In this document: piece after piece, positions 56,466 through 61,034 of the stretch
How the letters are laid out: every line of letters starts with the position of its first letter
How positions within the stretch are numbered: the first letter of the stretch is position 1
Source of the DNA: Chryseobacterium glaciei
GTDB lineage: Bacteria > Bacteroidota > Bacteroidia > Flavobacteriales > Weeksellaceae
Direction: 5' to 3'
Assembly (NCBI RefSeq): GCF_001648155.1
Contig: NZ_CP015199.1
Coordinates: 2,242,501-2,306,500, forward strand
DNA: 64,000 nucleotides
Made by a program: the position numbers and the translations under genes
The notes under the pieces: model-generated
The model's input: only the letters and a program-made list of their open reading frames with translations
Database searches by the model: none
Told to the model about the DNA's origin: nothing

Positions 56466-56493
56466 TTGATTTTCAAGAATTTTTATATATTTG
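56466..56493 (+). promoter_or_regulatory. Promoter of the short leader-like transcript
   Basis: TTG (56466-56468) and TATATTTG (56486-56493) are 17 bases apart. The start of transcription is expected near 56500. Confidence 0.65.
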
Positions 56494-56535
56494 CACCAGA
56501 AAATAAAGTTTAACCAATAAAAAAACAACGAAGCA

Positions 56536-56613
56536 ATGTTCAAATTAGATCATAATTCTCCTTTCGGTTTGCCACTTATGGTGGTGAGGCTTCGTGGTTT
56601 GGTACACTCTTAG
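56536..56613 (+). CDS. Putative Leu/Val-rich leader peptide
   Basis: A 25-codon ORF from ATG 56536 to TAG 56611-56613 has 5 leucines and 3 valines (its centre reads LPLMVVRLRGLV), the composition of branched-chain leader peptides. Its start shares ACRAAGCAATG context with the lysA leader. Translation is inferred. Because no branched-chain gene follows, it may be an orphan or a small RNA with a chance ORF. Confidence 0.4.
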   Translation: MFKLDHNSPFGLPLMVVRLRGLVHS

Positions 56614-56635
56614 AATAACAGTACAATGATATATC

Positions 56636-56667
56636 AAAACCCGAAGTCGTAAGATTTCGGGTTTTTT
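56636..56667 (+). terminator. Terminator of the short leader-like transcript
   Basis: AAAACCCGAA (56636-56645) pairs with TTCGGGTTTT (56656-56665) and ends in a run of T. Confidence 0.85.
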
Positions 56668-56958
56668 ATTGCGCAATAATTCAAACTTCAAGTTTCCCCG
56701 AAATCATTTTTAATACAATTTAGGAGCTATTTCCCGCTTTCCGCTATATCTTTTTTGCCTTTGCTTTTTTCAAGCCATCGCAAAAAAAGGATGTCGCTGC
56801 AATCGGGGCTAATGATAACGCTCTGCCAATAAAACCTAACAGGTTTCAAAAACCTATGAGGTTTGAAGAACTCATCAACTAAAATATTAGTTGACAAAGA
56901 TTTAATGTGATGTGTCATAGGCTAAATCCAGATACTTCACCTCTAATATCTATAATTA
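56668..56958. other. Gap with palindrome and dispersed repeats
   Basis: A perfect palindrome TTATTGCGCAATAA lies at 56666-56679, next to the terminator. The stretch 56723-56810 (starts GGAGCTATTTCCCGC, ends AATCGGGGCT) is one I recall as a dispersed element in flavobacterial genomes. A second repeat lies at 56832-56863. Confidence 0.5.
56832..56863. repeat. AAACCTAACAGGTTT palindromic repeat, diverged copy
   Basis: AAACCTAACAGGTTT is followed by AAACCTATGAGGTTT, so the second arm has drifted. A perfect copy lies at 59181-59213, on the far side of rtcB. Confidence 0.7.
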
Positions 56959-57708
56959 ATGGAAAATGATAACCTTCTGTTTTCAAGATTGAGAAGTCTG
57001 AGAAGCAGAAAAAGAATAATAAAAAAAGATGTAGAAAAGCAGATAAGAAAAAAGTATAAGCGTAATAGAGAACTTTGGGAAACAAGAAGAAAAATTCCGT
57101 TAGTTCCATTGGAAAATCCTTATCAGAAAGGTTTTGTAAGATTCTTTGTGGTCAGAGATGACGTGAAAAGAACTAAAGACGGAAAGTTTTTTGAAGGAAT
57201 TCTTTCGAAGATCAACACCTATATGTATTCTGAAACCCGAAAATTTTTAAAAAAGAAAAGAAAATTCGGAAGAAAAATATATGTACCGAGAGATCAGAAG
57301 CTAGGTCGTCTTTTACCCTACCAATGGAATGATCCAAAATTGGGATTAACAATCAGAGAAAAACAATACTTTCTGAAAAGAGAAGAATACGATCCGTTCA
57401 GAAAAAGATACAACGTTTATTACGAATTCATCGAGCCATGGAGGTTTACCTTACAAGTAAAACCGTATATGATCACTCATTACAAACCTTTAAACTCAGA
57501 TTTAGAAAAAGAAATAGATGAACTAGATTCTTATTTAAATCAACATAAAATTAAAGGAATTATTTGTAAAAAAATAAATGGGGGATTAGGCAAATTAAGA
57601 TATGAAGATGAAAAAATTGATCTTATCGAGAGTAGAAAATACTTTCACTACAAAAAAATGTCCGCAACAGAGTTTGCAGATTATTTTATGGACGAATGCG
57701 TCCGCTAA
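56959..57708 (+). CDS. Basic protein of unknown function next to rtcB
   Basis: This 249-residue protein is rich in Lys, Arg and Tyr, especially at the start (RLRSLRSRKRIIKKDVEKQIR), with no signal peptide or membrane span. A central part has GKFFEGILSKINTYMYSETRKFLKKKRKFGRK and IYVPRDQKLGRLLPYQW. I do not recognise a domain. Its basic character fits RNA or ribosome binding. Its stop abuts the first possible start of rtcB (57709), so the two are coupled, which points to the same pathway. Confidence 0.65.
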   Translation: MENDNLLFSRLRSLRSRKRIIKKDVEKQIRKKYKRNRELWETRRKIPLVPLENPYQKGFVRFFVVRDDVKRTKDGKFFEGILSKINTYMYSETRKFLKKKRKFGRKIYVPRDQKLGRLLPYQWNDPKLGLTIREKQYFLKREEYDPFRKRYNVYYEFIEPWRFTLQVKPYMITHYKPLNSDLEKEIDELDSYLNQHKIKGIICKKINGGLGKLRYEDEKIDLIESRKYFHYKKMSATEFADYFMDECVR

Positions 57709-57726
57709 ATGTTTAAAACAAAAACA

Positions 57727-59118
57727 ATGGGAAATTTAAAACTTAAAGGAAAAGATATATTAAAAATAGGCTATCCAAACAATCAGAGTGTAAACATCGC
57801 TTTGGAAGTCATGAAAAGAAATTTTGCAACGAAAAATATTCATCATGTAAAATCTCTTTTAAAAGAAATTCTGACTAATCCGGAAGATTTCGAAAAAGAT
57901 TTAACCTTCGGACAAATTGCAGAAGCCTTGCTTTCATCCAAGAAAACAGAAAAAAGAATGTTGAATGCCAACCGTACTTCTTTTCAGATTTTCGGAAACA
58001 ATATTTCGGATGAAGCAAAAAATCAATTATACACAGGATTGAAACTTCCGATTGCAATACAGGGAGCCTTGATGCCTGATGCTCACAGCGGTTACGGACT
58101 TCCGATTGGCGGAGTTCTCGCAGTAGAAAACGCGGTAATTCCTTACGGAGTCGGCATGGATATTGGCTGCAGAATGAGCCTCAGTATTTTGGATACCCCT
58201 ATTTCATATCTGGATGGAGCAAGAGATAAATATGAAAAAGCTCTTGCCGAACATACCAAATTCGGAATGTACGAAACGCATAAATCTCACGTCGATCATG
58301 AAATTTTCGACAGAGATACATTCGATATGATCCCGATTTTGAAAAGATTAAAAGGAAAAGCCATCAAACAAATGGGTAGTTCCGGTGGTGGAAACCACTT
58401 TGTAGAATTCGGAGAAGTTGAAATCACAGAAGAAGACGAGCAAATCGGACTTCCAAAAGGAAAATACCTCGGAATTCTTTCTCACAGCGGTTCGCGTGGA
58501 TTGGGTGCTGAGATCGCTCAATATTATTCAAGAGTTGCAACAGAACAATGTCCATTGCCAAAAGAAGCGCAAAACTTTGCCTGGCTGGATTTAAACACGC
58601 ATCTCGGATTAGAATATTGGACGGCGATGAACTTGGCGGGAGATTATGCTTCAGCCTGTCACGACGATATTCACAGAAGATTGGTGAAAGCGGTCGGAGG
58701 AAGAGTAAAAGCTAAAATCGAAAATCATCACAATTTTGCTTGGAAAGAAATCCACAATGGAAGAGAAATGATCGTCCACAGAAAAGGCGCAACTCCCGCC
58801 AATGAAAATGAATTGGGTATGATTCCCGGATCAATGACCGCAAAAGGTTTCATCGTTCGCGGAAAAGGAAATCCAGATTCGTTGAATTCAGCTTCACACG
58901 GTGCGGGAAGAGCTTTTTCAAGAGGAGAATGCAGAAACCTTTTCACTCAAAATGACATCAAAAAAGAATTGAAATTAAAGAATGTCATTTTGATGGGTGG
59001 AAACACCGAAGAAGCACCAATGGCTTACAAAGACATCAACGAAGTCATGAATGCCCAAAGCGAATTGGTAGATATCCTCGGAACTTTTCAACCAAGAATT
59101 GTGAGGATGGATAGATAA
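57727..59118 (+). CDS. rtcB: RNA ligase RtcB
   Basis: RtcB joins RNA ends with 2',3'-cyclic phosphate or 3'-phosphate to 5'-OH, using GTP and manganese. Key features are MPDAHSGYGLPIGGVLA, GMDIGCRM with the metal Cys, GGNHFVEFGE, LSHSGSRGLG, ENHHNFAW and the GMP-linked His in SHGAGRAFSRGE. I start at ATG 57727 (MGNLKLKGKDILKIGYP); ATG 57709 is in frame and abuts the upstream gene. At 463 residues the length fits. With prfH downstream this is likely the ribosome-repair type (RtcB2), which rejoins cut 16S rRNA. Confidence 0.93.
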   Translation: MGNLKLKGKDILKIGYPNNQSVNIALEVMKRNFATKNIHHVKSLLKEILTNPEDFEKDLTFGQIAEALLSSKKTEKRMLNANRTSFQIFGNNISDEAKNQLYTGLKLPIAIQGALMPDAHSGYGLPIGGVLAVENAVIPYGVGMDIGCRMSLSILDTPISYLDGARDKYEKALAEHTKFGMYETHKSHVDHEIFDRDTFDMIPILKRLKGKAIKQMGSSGGGNHFVEFGEVEITEEDEQIGLPKGKYLGILSHSGSRGLGAEIAQYYSRVATEQCPLPKEAQNFAWLDLNTHLGLEYWTAMNLAGDYASACHDDIHRRLVKAVGGRVKAKIENHHNFAWKEIHNGREMIVHRKGATPANENELGMIPGSMTAKGFIVRGKGNPDSLNSASHGAGRAFSRGECRNLFTQNDIKKELKLKNVILMGGNTEEAPMAYKDINEVMNAQSELVDILGTFQPRIVRMDR

Positions 59119-59180
59119 ATTGGTTGATGGGTTATAGTTGTTGGTTGATGGATTTTTCACTGACGACTATTAGTAAGGCT

Positions 59181-59213
59181 AAACCTAACAGGTTTCAAAA
59201 ACCTGTTAGGTTT
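59181..59213. repeat. AAACCTAACAGGTTT palindromic repeat, perfect copy
   Basis: AAACCTAACAGGTTT (59181-59195) and AAACCTGTTAGGTTT (59199-59213) are exact complements with a 3-base gap. This type of repeat is widely dispersed in flavobacteria. It sits between rtcB and the zinc-ribbon gene. The other copy is at 56832. Confidence 0.75.
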
Positions 59214-59230
59214 GAATATCCTTCACCAAA

Positions 59231-59842
59231 ATGACAAAAAGAAAATTTAAAAAAATGACAAAAAGATACAAACAAGAATATTTCAATTATCATGAGAGCA
59301 TTCTCGTTGTCTGTCCAGATTGTGGAGAAGATGCTGTTGTTAAAAATGAACACAGTTACAAACAAGCAATATTAGAATGCAGGCATTGTGATTTGAAGAA
59401 AAATGGGCTGGATTTGGTCGTTTATAAAGCAATAATTAAACTTAACTGTCCTATTTGCAGTCATCATATTCATAATGAGCAAGGTAATTTAAAAGAAAAG
59501 CCTAAAAATGTACCTGTGAAATGTGATGAGTGTGATTCAAGGTTTGATATTCAACCAAAATTTGAGAAATATCTCAATTCTATTTTAAGAGAAGAGGGTT
59601 TGATTCATGATCAGGTTTTTGGATGCCCTTATTATTTTCAGGAAGATTTCAAAGGGAAATTATTCTGGGCTAGAAATAGAGAACACCTTTTGGAAATGGA
59701 AAATTATGTTTCATCAGATCTTAGAACACGATTGCCTTACAGAATGCGAATGGTAGAAAAATTACCAACATTTATTAAAGAAGCAAAAAACAGAGATGCT
59801 ATCTTAAAAATTTTACAAAAATGGAAAAACTCATACAAATAA
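59231..59842 (+). CDS. Double zinc-ribbon protein
   Basis: The 203-residue product has two zinc-ribbon-like units: CPDCGE with CRHCDL (about 29-55), and CPICSHH with KCDECDS (about 75-105). The C-terminal half has a region with FGCPYYFQEDFKGKLFWARNREHLLEM and many basic residues. There is no signal peptide. It overlaps prfH by 22 bases, so they are translated together. Zinc ribbons often bind nucleic acid or ribosomes. I do not recognise a named family. A second in-frame ATG lies at 59255. Confidence 0.7.
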   Translation: MTKRKFKKMTKRYKQEYFNYHESILVVCPDCGEDAVVKNEHSYKQAILECRHCDLKKNGLDLVVYKAIIKLNCPICSHHIHNEQGNLKEKPKNVPVKCDECDSRFDIQPKFEKYLNSILREEGLIHDQVFGCPYYFQEDFKGKLFWARNREHLLEMENYVSSDLRTRLPYRMRMVEKLPTFIKEAKNRDAILKILQKWKNSYK

Positions 59843-60519
59843 CCTCAGGAAGAGGACCTTTAGAATGCCAATGGGTAGTAGCGAAAGTTCTGAAGGTTTT
59901 CCTTGAGGAAGTAAAAAATAATAATATAGATTACGAAATCATACACCGCGAAAACGGTGATGAAAATCTGACATTAAAATCCGTAACCATCATTTTAAAA
60001 TCAAAAGATTTATCTGAATTTTTAAAAACATGGTTAGGAAGTATTTGCTGGACAGGAAAAAGTACATTCCGGAAACTGCACAAAAGAAGCAATTGGTTCA
60101 TCGGTGTTTTTGAATTGGAAGGTTTAGAGAAGATTAATTTTAATGAAAAAGATATTCAATTCCAAACAGCGAGAAGTCAGGGAAGTGGCGGACAAAATGT
60201 GAATAAAGTGAACACAGCTGTTCGCGCGACCCATTTACCTACTGGACAAAGTGTTTTCGTACAGGATACACGTTCACAATTGGAGAATAAAAAACTGTCC
60301 ATAACAAGATTAAAAGAAAAAGTTTTGGAACAGAATATTATTCAACTTCAAAAAAGAATGCAGGAAACATGGAATAATCATTTGCAGGTGCAAAGAGGAA
60401 ATCCGATTCGTACATTTTCTGGAACAGATTTTAAAAAGAATTATCAGGAAAGATCTTTCAAAAAGCAAAGAAACGTCCTGAAAACCGAATTAAAAAACTA
60501 CAAGAATGACGTTAACTAA
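59821..60519 (+). CDS. prfH: Release-factor homologue PrfH
   Basis: PrfH resembles the catalytic half of RF1/RF2 with GGQ intact (GSGGQNVNK near 120-128) but lacks the stop-codon-reading helical domains of RF1 (361 residues here against 232). PrfH is known to recognise ribosomes cut in the 16S decoding centre and release the stuck peptide so that RtcB can rejoin the RNA. The N-terminus here (RGPLECQWVVAKVLKVFLEEV) matches the family. It overlaps both its neighbours. Confidence in the family is high. The repair role is by homology. Confidence 0.9.
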   Translation: MEKLIQITSGRGPLECQWVVAKVLKVFLEEVKNNNIDYEIIHRENGDENLTLKSVTIILKSKDLSEFLKTWLGSICWTGKSTFRKLHKRSNWFIGVFELEGLEKINFNEKDIQFQTARSQGSGGQNVNKVNTAVRATHLPTGQSVFVQDTRSQLENKKLSITRLKEKVLEQNIIQLQKRMQETWNNHLQVQRGNPIRTFSGTDFKKNYQERSFKKQRNVLKTELKNYKNDVN

Positions 60520-61021
60520 AAGTAAGTATTACTTCGAGGCTCTTGATAATTATCCTTACAGCTTACCGGATTGTCTGGAAGCGCTGAATTATGCGCTGTC
60601 CTACGATCCTGAAGATGCAGACAGCCTGTGTTTAATGGGAAGAATCTACAGCGAAATGTTAATCGATTACGAAAAAGCAAAGCTGTATTTTGAAGAAGCA
60701 ATGCTCTGCGATGTGACGAACTTAAATGTTCCACAATATTACATCAAATGTCTTTTGGATAACGAAGATTTCCATGAAGCGGAAAAACTGATCCGATATT
60801 CTTTGAAAATTAAAGGGATTGATAAATCAGTCATTTGGCTTTACCGATCTTTGCTTTCCGAGAAAAGAGGAAGCTTAAGAAATGCTTTGAAGTTTTTAAA
60901 TGAAGCAGAAAAGTACTGTTTCACATCCTGCAGTCTTGATTCAATAAAAGGACGCAAAAAATTTGTGAAATCTAAAATGCCGAAGAAAAAACAAACTAAA
61001 AAGAATAAGGAGACGAAATAA
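60506..61021 (+). CDS. TPR protein in the rtcB-prfH cluster
   Basis: The 171-residue product holds TPR-like helices (ALSYDPEDADSLCLMGRIYSEMLIDYEKAKLYFEEA near 28-62 and a second set to 145) and a very basic tail (PKKKQTKKNKETK). It overlaps prfH by 14 bases and its end forms part of the operon terminator. TPR proteins often hold complexes together, and the basic tail could touch RNA. Role not known. Confidence 0.75.
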   Translation: MTLTKSKYYFEALDNYPYSLPDCLEALNYALSYDPEDADSLCLMGRIYSEMLIDYEKAKLYFEEAMLCDVTNLNVPQYYIKCLLDNEDFHEAEKLIRYSLKIKGIDKSVIWLYRSLLSEKRGSLRNALKFLNEAEKYCFTSCSLDSIKGRKKFVKSKMPKKKQTKKNKETK

Positions 61022-61034
61022 GTCTCCTTTTTTT
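61007..61034 (+). terminator. Terminator of the RNA repair cluster
   Basis: AAGGAGAC (61007-61014) pairs with GTCTCCTT (61022-61029), followed by T to 61034. The stem overlaps the last codons of the TPR gene. Confidence 0.9.

Follow-up and report, generated by a model that had tools for sequence, protein, structure and literature searches.

The stretch of DNA analysed here (the window) comprises 64,000 nt of Chryseobacterium glaciei (GCF_001648155.1, NZ_CP015199.1, positions 2,242,501-2,306,500, forward strand) and carries, at window positions 56959-61021, five plus-strand genes that include those for an RtcB-type RNA ligase and for the release factor homologue PrfH. In order, these are P249 (56959..57708), rtcB (57709..59118), Zn203 (59231..59842), prfH (59821..60519) and a TPR-repeat protein gene (60506..61021), with a single intrinsic terminator on the same strand, a terminator-like hairpin with a T run at 61007..61029, closing the cluster. 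There is no gap between P249 and rtcB, prfH overlaps Zn203 by 22 nt and the TPR gene by 14 nt, and the 112-bp gap between rtcB and Zn203 contains a dispersed palindrome. The GC content of the cluster is 35.1%, as against 34.3% for the window, and the closest named prfH loci are those of Chryseobacterium, at up to 92% protein identity. An earlier, sequence-only reading had described rtcB and prfH as a compact cluster ending in one terminator, and this is confirmed by the coordinates of the open reading frames (ORFs), the matches to PF01139 and TIGR03072 and the hairpin at 61007-61029. The most informative part of the locus sits upstream of the region covered by that reading (56959-61021): a conserved leader at 56525-56667, predicted to act as a transcription attenuator.

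The leader follows a promoter-like TATATTTG (56486..56493, plus strand, recognised from its letters), which we take to correspond to the Bacteroidota -7 motif TAnnTTTG, and then presents segment 1, a start codon, an ORF containing hairpin P and segment 2, a stop codon, and a terminator formed by segments 3 and 4. All parts lie on the plus strand. Segment 1 (56528..56534) can pair with segment 2 (56589..56598), which can alternatively pair with segment 3 (56639..56647), the 5' arm of the terminator; the 3' arm is segment 4 (56654..56662), with a T run extending to 56667, and all four segments were delimited by covariation. The ORF (56536..56613) consists of 25 codons plus TAG and encodes MFKLDHNSPFGLPLMVVRLRGLVHS, and hairpin P (56568..56588) lies within it, just 5' of segment 2. 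A blastn search with 56480-56720 gave matches in 46 loci, at 70-92% identity over 86-248 columns, some genomes being matched twice. The covariance model R1, of which the window supplied one of 29 building rows, scores the window leader at 140.5 bits and finds no other match in its own genome.

The start codon of the ORF lies 1-6 nt past segment 1 (1 nt in the window), and an ORF of 24-28 codons occurs in 56 of the 57 leaders found with the model, the exception (L042) having 30 codons, as against 220 of 4000 random stretches from the same loci with an ATG likewise placed; among leaders that took no part in model building the count is 27 of 28. An earlier pattern scan had accepted only ORFs of 18-34 codons, so that open ORFs there were partly selected; the count given here was made anew on the leaders matched by the model. 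L042 and L044 are without a full terminator with a T run. In 45 of 46 leaders the ATG and segment 2 are separated by a distance divisible by three. The encoded peptide drifts, with a ratio of nonsynonymous to synonymous change (pN/pS) of 0.62 for codons 2-17 in 27 leaders, and the residues that recur across clades are mainly those encoded by segment 2. Before segment 2 no residue occurs more than five times, and the commonest residue differs among the 46 leaders; an amino-acid-specific attenuator was rejected, the leaders having no common regulatory codon. Hairpin P forms at least 6 bp in 45 of 46 leaders despite clade-specific sequences, ends 0-5 nt from segment 2 in 44 of the 46 and 8 or 10 nt from it in the other two, and has a median z-score of -1.38 (35 of 46 below -1), compared with 0.76 for a control stretch.

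Comparison of the aligned leaders indicates that the four segments can form three mutually exclusive helices (1:2, 2:3 and 3:4), each with compensatory changes. Helix statistics were taken from 29 aligned leaders (alignment A4), 17 of the 46 rows of the larger alignment (A3) being left out because their arms were shifted (L004, L024, L035, L108, L140) or because they were near-copies or irregular. Pairing holds in 96.6% of cells for helix 1:2, 94.3% for 2:3 and 98.1% for 3:4, and both sides have changed in 18, 21 and 32 cells, respectively, counts that exceed the number of independent changes since related leaders are counted many times. For none of the three helices did any of 500 shuffles reach the observed pairing percentage, number of both-side changes or covariation score, and partners slid by 1-3 columns pair in only 15.9-62.5%. 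Among all 46 rows, including L105 and L108 as anchored on a wrong CTTC, one pair between segments 1 and 2 is C-G (39) or T-A (4) and another A-T (31) or C-G (8), and between segments 2 and 3 one is G-C (32) or A-T (9) and another T-A (25) or C-G (13); the variable 1:2 pairs form in 41, 43 and 42 rows and the variable 2:3 pairs in 40, 39, 41 and 43. Predicted energies in the window are -11.3 (1:2), -15.4 (2:3) and -16.3 kcal/mol (3:4). Folding of a transcript ending at 56650 gives helix 2:3 a probability of 0.98-1.0, which falls to 0 with a ribosome on segment 2 or at the stop codon.

The leader is closely tied to prfH operons. At an E-value of 0.001, R1 detects it at 57 of 61 Bacteroidota prfH loci, of which 29 had contributed to the model and 28 had not; the four missed are L032, whose contig ends inside prfH, and the more distant L084, L110 and L111, a Persicobacteraceae plasmid and two genomes with only the class in common. 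In 148 genomes of the family, some of them the same organisms as the loci used and all subject to stricter filters that lose weak matches, strong R1 matches (at least 53.9 bits, the next best being 44.8) occur once each in 63 genomes, namely in 61 of 61 prfH-positive and 2 of 87 prfH-negative ones (G051 and G006). In all 61 prfH-positive genomes the leader is on the contig and strand of prfH, 121 to 3664 nt before it. Relaxing the E-value to 0.01 raises the number of matching genomes to 68, five prfH-negative genomes (G007, G105, G114, G126, G131) matching only weakly (at most 44.6 bits), and some of the 63 strong-match genomes have a second, weak match. At the same E-value, R1 gives no match in the 18 RtcB-only loci or in the six proteobacterial prfH loci searched. 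In the leaders of the window and L104, every Rfam family stays below its gathering score (Trp_leader 22.2 of 41 in the window; His_leader 29.6 of 49, Thr_leader 28 of 55 and Phe_leader 19.6 of 55 in L104), and identity with a known Rfam leader was rejected for these two on that ground.

PrfH and the ligase also travel together closely. With RtcB of this type defined by at least 57% identity and PrfH by a score above the TIGR03072 cut-off, the same 148 genomes contain both in 60 cases, PrfH alone in one, RtcB alone in one and neither in 86, a pairing that is not due to chance. G069 has the leader, prfH and the TPR gene without an RtcB of this type. Decaying operons were also seen: G051 (locus L140) has kept leader, rtcB and TPR gene and has neither prfH nor a recognisable remnant of it, and in G006 (L161) the leader stands just before a TPR gene with no rtcB or prfH found in the 5.5 kb examined, an arrangement that is likely an operon remnant. 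L042 and L050/L141 are prfH-TPR loci with a leader in which rtcB was not found within the stretch examined, so PrfH may act with a distant ligase or with none.

The product of prfH, 232 aa long, scores 208.4 bits against TIGR03072 (cut-off 166.65) in a profile search, has no release factor domain 1, and is matched by the RF2 profile from position 119 on. It carries the GGQ motif at residues 123-125, GRGP from residue 10, where GP replaces the GG of RF1 and RF2, and Arg84 adjoining the anticodon-like motif; GP for GG and an Arg at that place are features of release factor H (RFH) as described by Baranov et al. 2006 (PMC1586002). The anticodon-like motif, SXY in the 2006 account, reads STF in the window and SPY (twice), SEL and SRF in four proteobacterial or actinobacterial PrfH; because it varies there too, the Tyr is not diagnostic. 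In a tree of 45 PrfH and 30 RF1/RF2-like rows, all PrfH fall on one side of a branch with full support in the Shimodaira-Hasegawa-like approximate likelihood ratio test (SH-aLRT 100). The window protein is a true PrfH and has the diagnostic residues. PDB entries 9mor and 9mq4 contain a close relative under the name peptide chain release factor H, and a literature search for these two codes found no paper.

RtcB scores 269.4 bits against PF01139 (cut-off 27) and has all seven of the metal- and GMP-site residues (D, C, N, H, H, H, H), at the positions of the catalytic residues of E. coli RtcB. Against TIGR03073, the profile for RtcB2, it reaches only 143.3 bits, below the cut-off of 271.8. Two trees were built, one of 82 rows, with near-identical Chryseobacterium RtcB thinned and broken or short rows left out, and one of 73 rows, thinned further and without the two longest branches (L128, L136); L034, L035 and L038, where 1.4-4.9 kb separate rtcB from prfH, were set as PrfH-linked by hand. 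In the 73-row tree, a separate clade (support 100/99) unites the eight PrfH-linked RtcB of Proteobacteria and Actinobacteria and is nested in a 23-row clade (100/89) that also contains E. coli RtcB1. The Bacteroidota PrfH-linked RtcB lie inside a Bacteroidota clade of 45 rows (94/94), 20 of which have no adjoining PrfH. Forcing all PrfH-linked RtcB into one clade costs 65.7 log-likelihood units and is rejected by the approximately unbiased (AU) test (p 3.3e-5), as it is with 82 rows (p 0.02). A single clade of Bacteroidota PrfH-linked RtcB is neither established nor refuted by these trees (SH-aLRT 80; AU p 0.33), and the exact place of RtcB2 is unsure because of long branches on its side of the tree.

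Profile score and tree tests speak against the window ligase being RtcB2, the partner of PrfH named in the sequence-only reading, which had proposed to check the point in a tree; the two fall in separate clades. A ligase grouping with RtcB not linked to PrfH would refute that reading, and here the outcome is divided: the protein does not group with RtcB2, but four of the five rows nearest to it in the 73-row tree are PrfH-linked, the fifth being from a genome that lost prfH. PrfH works here with a ligase lineage other than RtcB2. Two distinct RtcB lineages serve as its partners, so the association originated or exchanged its ligase on more than one occasion, and these Bacteroidota ligases should not be called RtcB2. 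A second, distant RtcB is encoded in the window's own genome, and one genus of the family has an additional RtcB (48-53% identity) that is found with PrfH in some cases and without it in others. Near prfH operons, a second, distant RtcB type was seen at L039, L040, L041, L043, L044 and L047 (Maribacter, Zobellia, Kordia, Aquimarina), accompanied at L039 and L041 by a CCA-enzyme-like gene, and on a Shinella plasmid (L146) the distant type precedes rtcB2-prfH.

The remaining genes of the cluster recur at related loci. P249 encodes a basic protein of 249 aa (pI 9.9) that belongs to no Pfam, NCBIfam or PADLOC family; Zn203 encodes 203 aa with a basic C-terminal part and four CxxC pairs, invariant in nine rows, its matches to zinc-ribbon profiles being below cut-off; and the TPR gene is recognised by TPR matches below cut-off and by relatives at other prfH loci. 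No fold was recognised for P249 or Zn203. A survey of 61 Bacteroidota prfH loci, including the window and omitting L141 (the same as L050), found RtcB at 58, TPR at 52, the P249 family at 28, a nucleotidyltransferase-like gene (181 aa) at 23, Zn203 at nine, an RNase T-type exonuclease at nine, and two further small families at two each. None of these accessories was found at eight proteobacterial or actinobacterial prfH loci or 18 Bacteroidota RtcB-only loci within the flanks covered (1.5-4 kb at the former; as a rule ~5-6 kb, and less for L121, at the latter). The window cluster has neither the nucleotidyltransferase-like gene nor the exonuclease, and a Pol-beta nucleotidyltransferase was not matched anywhere in its genome. 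The exonuclease lies near prfH at L034, L038, L040, L042, L044, L045, L048, L105 and L107, five of which also carry the nucleotidyltransferase-like gene; it is possible that the two trim and refill RNA ends before ligation. Relatives of Zn203, or of its C-terminal part, also occur away from prfH, prfH-negative genomes included (L153-L156, in G140, G122, G078 and G026), and L005, L008 and L009 have extra small genes (162 and 206-214 aa), without assigned function, in slots beside rtcB. Between the leader and P249 lies a Flavo-1 RNA (RF01705) at 56726-56814 on the minus strand (66.1 bits, gathering score 42), and the palindromic repeat, found in 20 places in the genome with at most two mismatches, has window copies at 56835-56861 and, between rtcB and Zn203, at 59184-59210.

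Based on what sequence comparison establishes, namely the genes, the ligase lineage, the leader with its ORF and three compensated helices, and the tight link of leader and prfH operon, we consider it fairly probable that the locus is a ribosome rescue-and-repair operon gated by a ribosome-mediated leader attenuator. Rescue and rRNA repair is the most likely job of the module by analogy with work on E. coli: PrfH would free the nascent peptide from ribosomes whose 16S rRNA has been cut in the decoding centre, and the Bacteroidota-type RtcB would reseal the cut rRNA, with the TPR, zinc-ribbon and basic orphan proteins as probable aids to binding or assembly on rRNA. The earlier proposal that mending toxin-cut ribosomes is the likeliest job of this RtcB therefore keeps its footing in the PrfH-RtcB module and in an intact ligase site (7/7), and loses the part that relied on RtcB2. 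In the leader, a ribosome reading the ORF to its end would cover segment 2, allowing the 3:4 terminator to form and leaving the operon off. A ribosome that starts but halts within the first dozen codons would leave segment 2 free, and helix 2:3 would form before segment 4 is made, blocking the terminator so that the repair genes are expressed.

We infer that the switch depends on the ribosome and that damaged ribosomes may be its natural signal. Ribosomes cut by colicin E3 are reported to initiate at ~75% of control and to halt after a few codons, making, by the authors' extrapolation, essentially no peptide above ~8 residues (Lancaster et al. 2008, PMC2615495). As segment 2 starts at about codon 18, it would stay free ahead of such a ribosome. 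It is quite possible, if short of probable, that the leader is a damage-sensing attenuator on which a cut ribosome stalls within ~8 codons and so induces its own repair operon; if true, the loop would be closed, injury to the ribosome itself calling up the means of its repair. The rtcB2-prfH operon is reported to protect E. coli ATCC25922 from colicin E3, and overexpression of rtcB2 alone also restored viability there (PMC9223846), so prfH may not always be needed. The E3-type nuclease domain PF09000 was found in three of the 148 family genomes, all prfH-positive and one by a partial match (one-sided P 0.07), a link that is suggestive only.

Several observations weigh against this interpretation. 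The window ligase belongs to a lineage different from RtcB2, the ligase whose activity was tested. On two measures that count pairs or pair types, the helices lie within the range of shuffles, as many as 117 and 147 (1:2), 280 and 431 (2:3) and 92 and 25 (3:4) of 500 scoring as high. Until segment 4 has been transcribed, helix 2:3 is predicted to outcompete 1:2 even with no ribosome present (P 0.98), and the full transcript favours 3:4 in all five states tried; the choice would hence have to precede the emergence of segment 4 and be a matter of timing, as in classical attenuators. Any cause of early translation arrest would, moreover, trigger the switch, and a real attenuator might accordingly be a general sensor of such arrest (by antibiotics, starvation or cold) for which ribosome damage was one trigger among many and not the selected one. 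Leader peptides that vary from clade to clade and have mainly the segment 2 residues in common, the lack before it of any residue occurring more than five times, the varying commonest residue among the 46 leaders, and the antibiotic-sensing leader attenuators described in other bacteria all fit such a sensor, which could be expected to head other operons as well; strong matches in the 148 genomes are, however, confined to prfH operons and two remnants, and we regard a general sensor as somewhat unlikely.

The target and the cis action of the leader can be questioned in the same way. The module might mend breaks other than the E3 site, in tRNA or elsewhere in rRNA, with PrfH freeing ribosomes jammed by them, as the different RtcB lineage and the nucleotidyltransferase-like and RNase T-type exonuclease genes at relatives' loci could suggest; tRNA repair was proposed for the nucleotidyltransferase by the authors of a 2019 study (PMC6514570). 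The window cluster, however, has neither of those two genes, its PrfH has retained the E. coli-type RFH residues, and the module of E. coli reportedly gives no protection from tRNA-cutting toxins (PMC9223846), which makes a target of this kind unlikely in our view. As to cis action, 291 nt, with the opposite-strand Flavo-1 RNA, separate the element from the first gene in the window, and in G006 it precedes a TPR gene without rtcB or prfH, as might be seen if it ended a short transcript of its own or were a small RNA beside the operon. Yet its constant placement 121 to 3664 nt upstream of prfH, on the same contig and strand, in every one of the 61 genomes argues for action in cis, and a plain terminator has no use for a compensated alternative antiterminator helix; independence from the operon thus seems very improbable.

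The nearest described relative is the RtcB2-PrfH operon of E. coli ATCC25922 (PMC9223846), which resembles the window cluster in the diagnostic motifs of PrfH and in joining prfH to an RtcB ligase in one operon; the order of events, release and then resealing, is probably the same. The window differs from that operon in its RtcB lineage, its TPR, zinc-ribbon and basic proteins and its attenuator leader. Its genes also match, by description, items 1, 3 and 4 of the RFH-RtcB operons with accretions listed by Burroughs and Aravind 2019 (PMC6514570), whose list comprises a TPR gene, a Pol-beta nucleotidyltransferase, a protein in which one or two zinc ribbons are joined to a C-terminal helical region of positive charge, and a charged orphan protein. 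P249 is likely the charged orphan protein, the two being equated by description only, and the window's accessory genes cannot count as new, since TPR, zinc-ribbon and charged orphan are already in that list. Neither leader, attenuator nor RNase T-type exonuclease is named in the main-text passages of that paper, its supplement being outside the comparison. In the 350 nt upstream of rtcB, with some gene starts approximate, a simple scan found a terminator-like hairpin at one of seven proteobacterial loci (Tritonibacter) and none at the single actinobacterial locus.

Ribosome-mediated attenuators, such as the trp, his and thr leaders and antibiotic-sensing leaders, work by a choice between alternative helices, and the window leader is like them in its leader ORF, its 1:2/2:3/3:4 pairing logic and its intrinsic terminator. 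Leader-peptide attenuation before amino-acid operons has been reported in Flavobacterium psychrophilum (PMC9723704), whose main text does not name rtcB. Neither an rtcB-prfH attenuator nor a description of what turns such operons on was found in the literature searched, which included PMC9723704 and PMC2965389 but not preprints, most subscription papers or supplements. What appears new is a leader attenuator, of known attenuation logic, at a known type of operon, and a ligase partner other than RtcB2. As a candidate cis-regulatory RNA the leader has no Rfam match, and its almost one-to-one link with prfH operons in the family means that it can help to find further repair operons. Unlike known attenuators, it has no common regulatory codon, its peptide drifts, and it heads a ribosome-repair operon, where it offers a concrete candidate sensor tied to repair genes.

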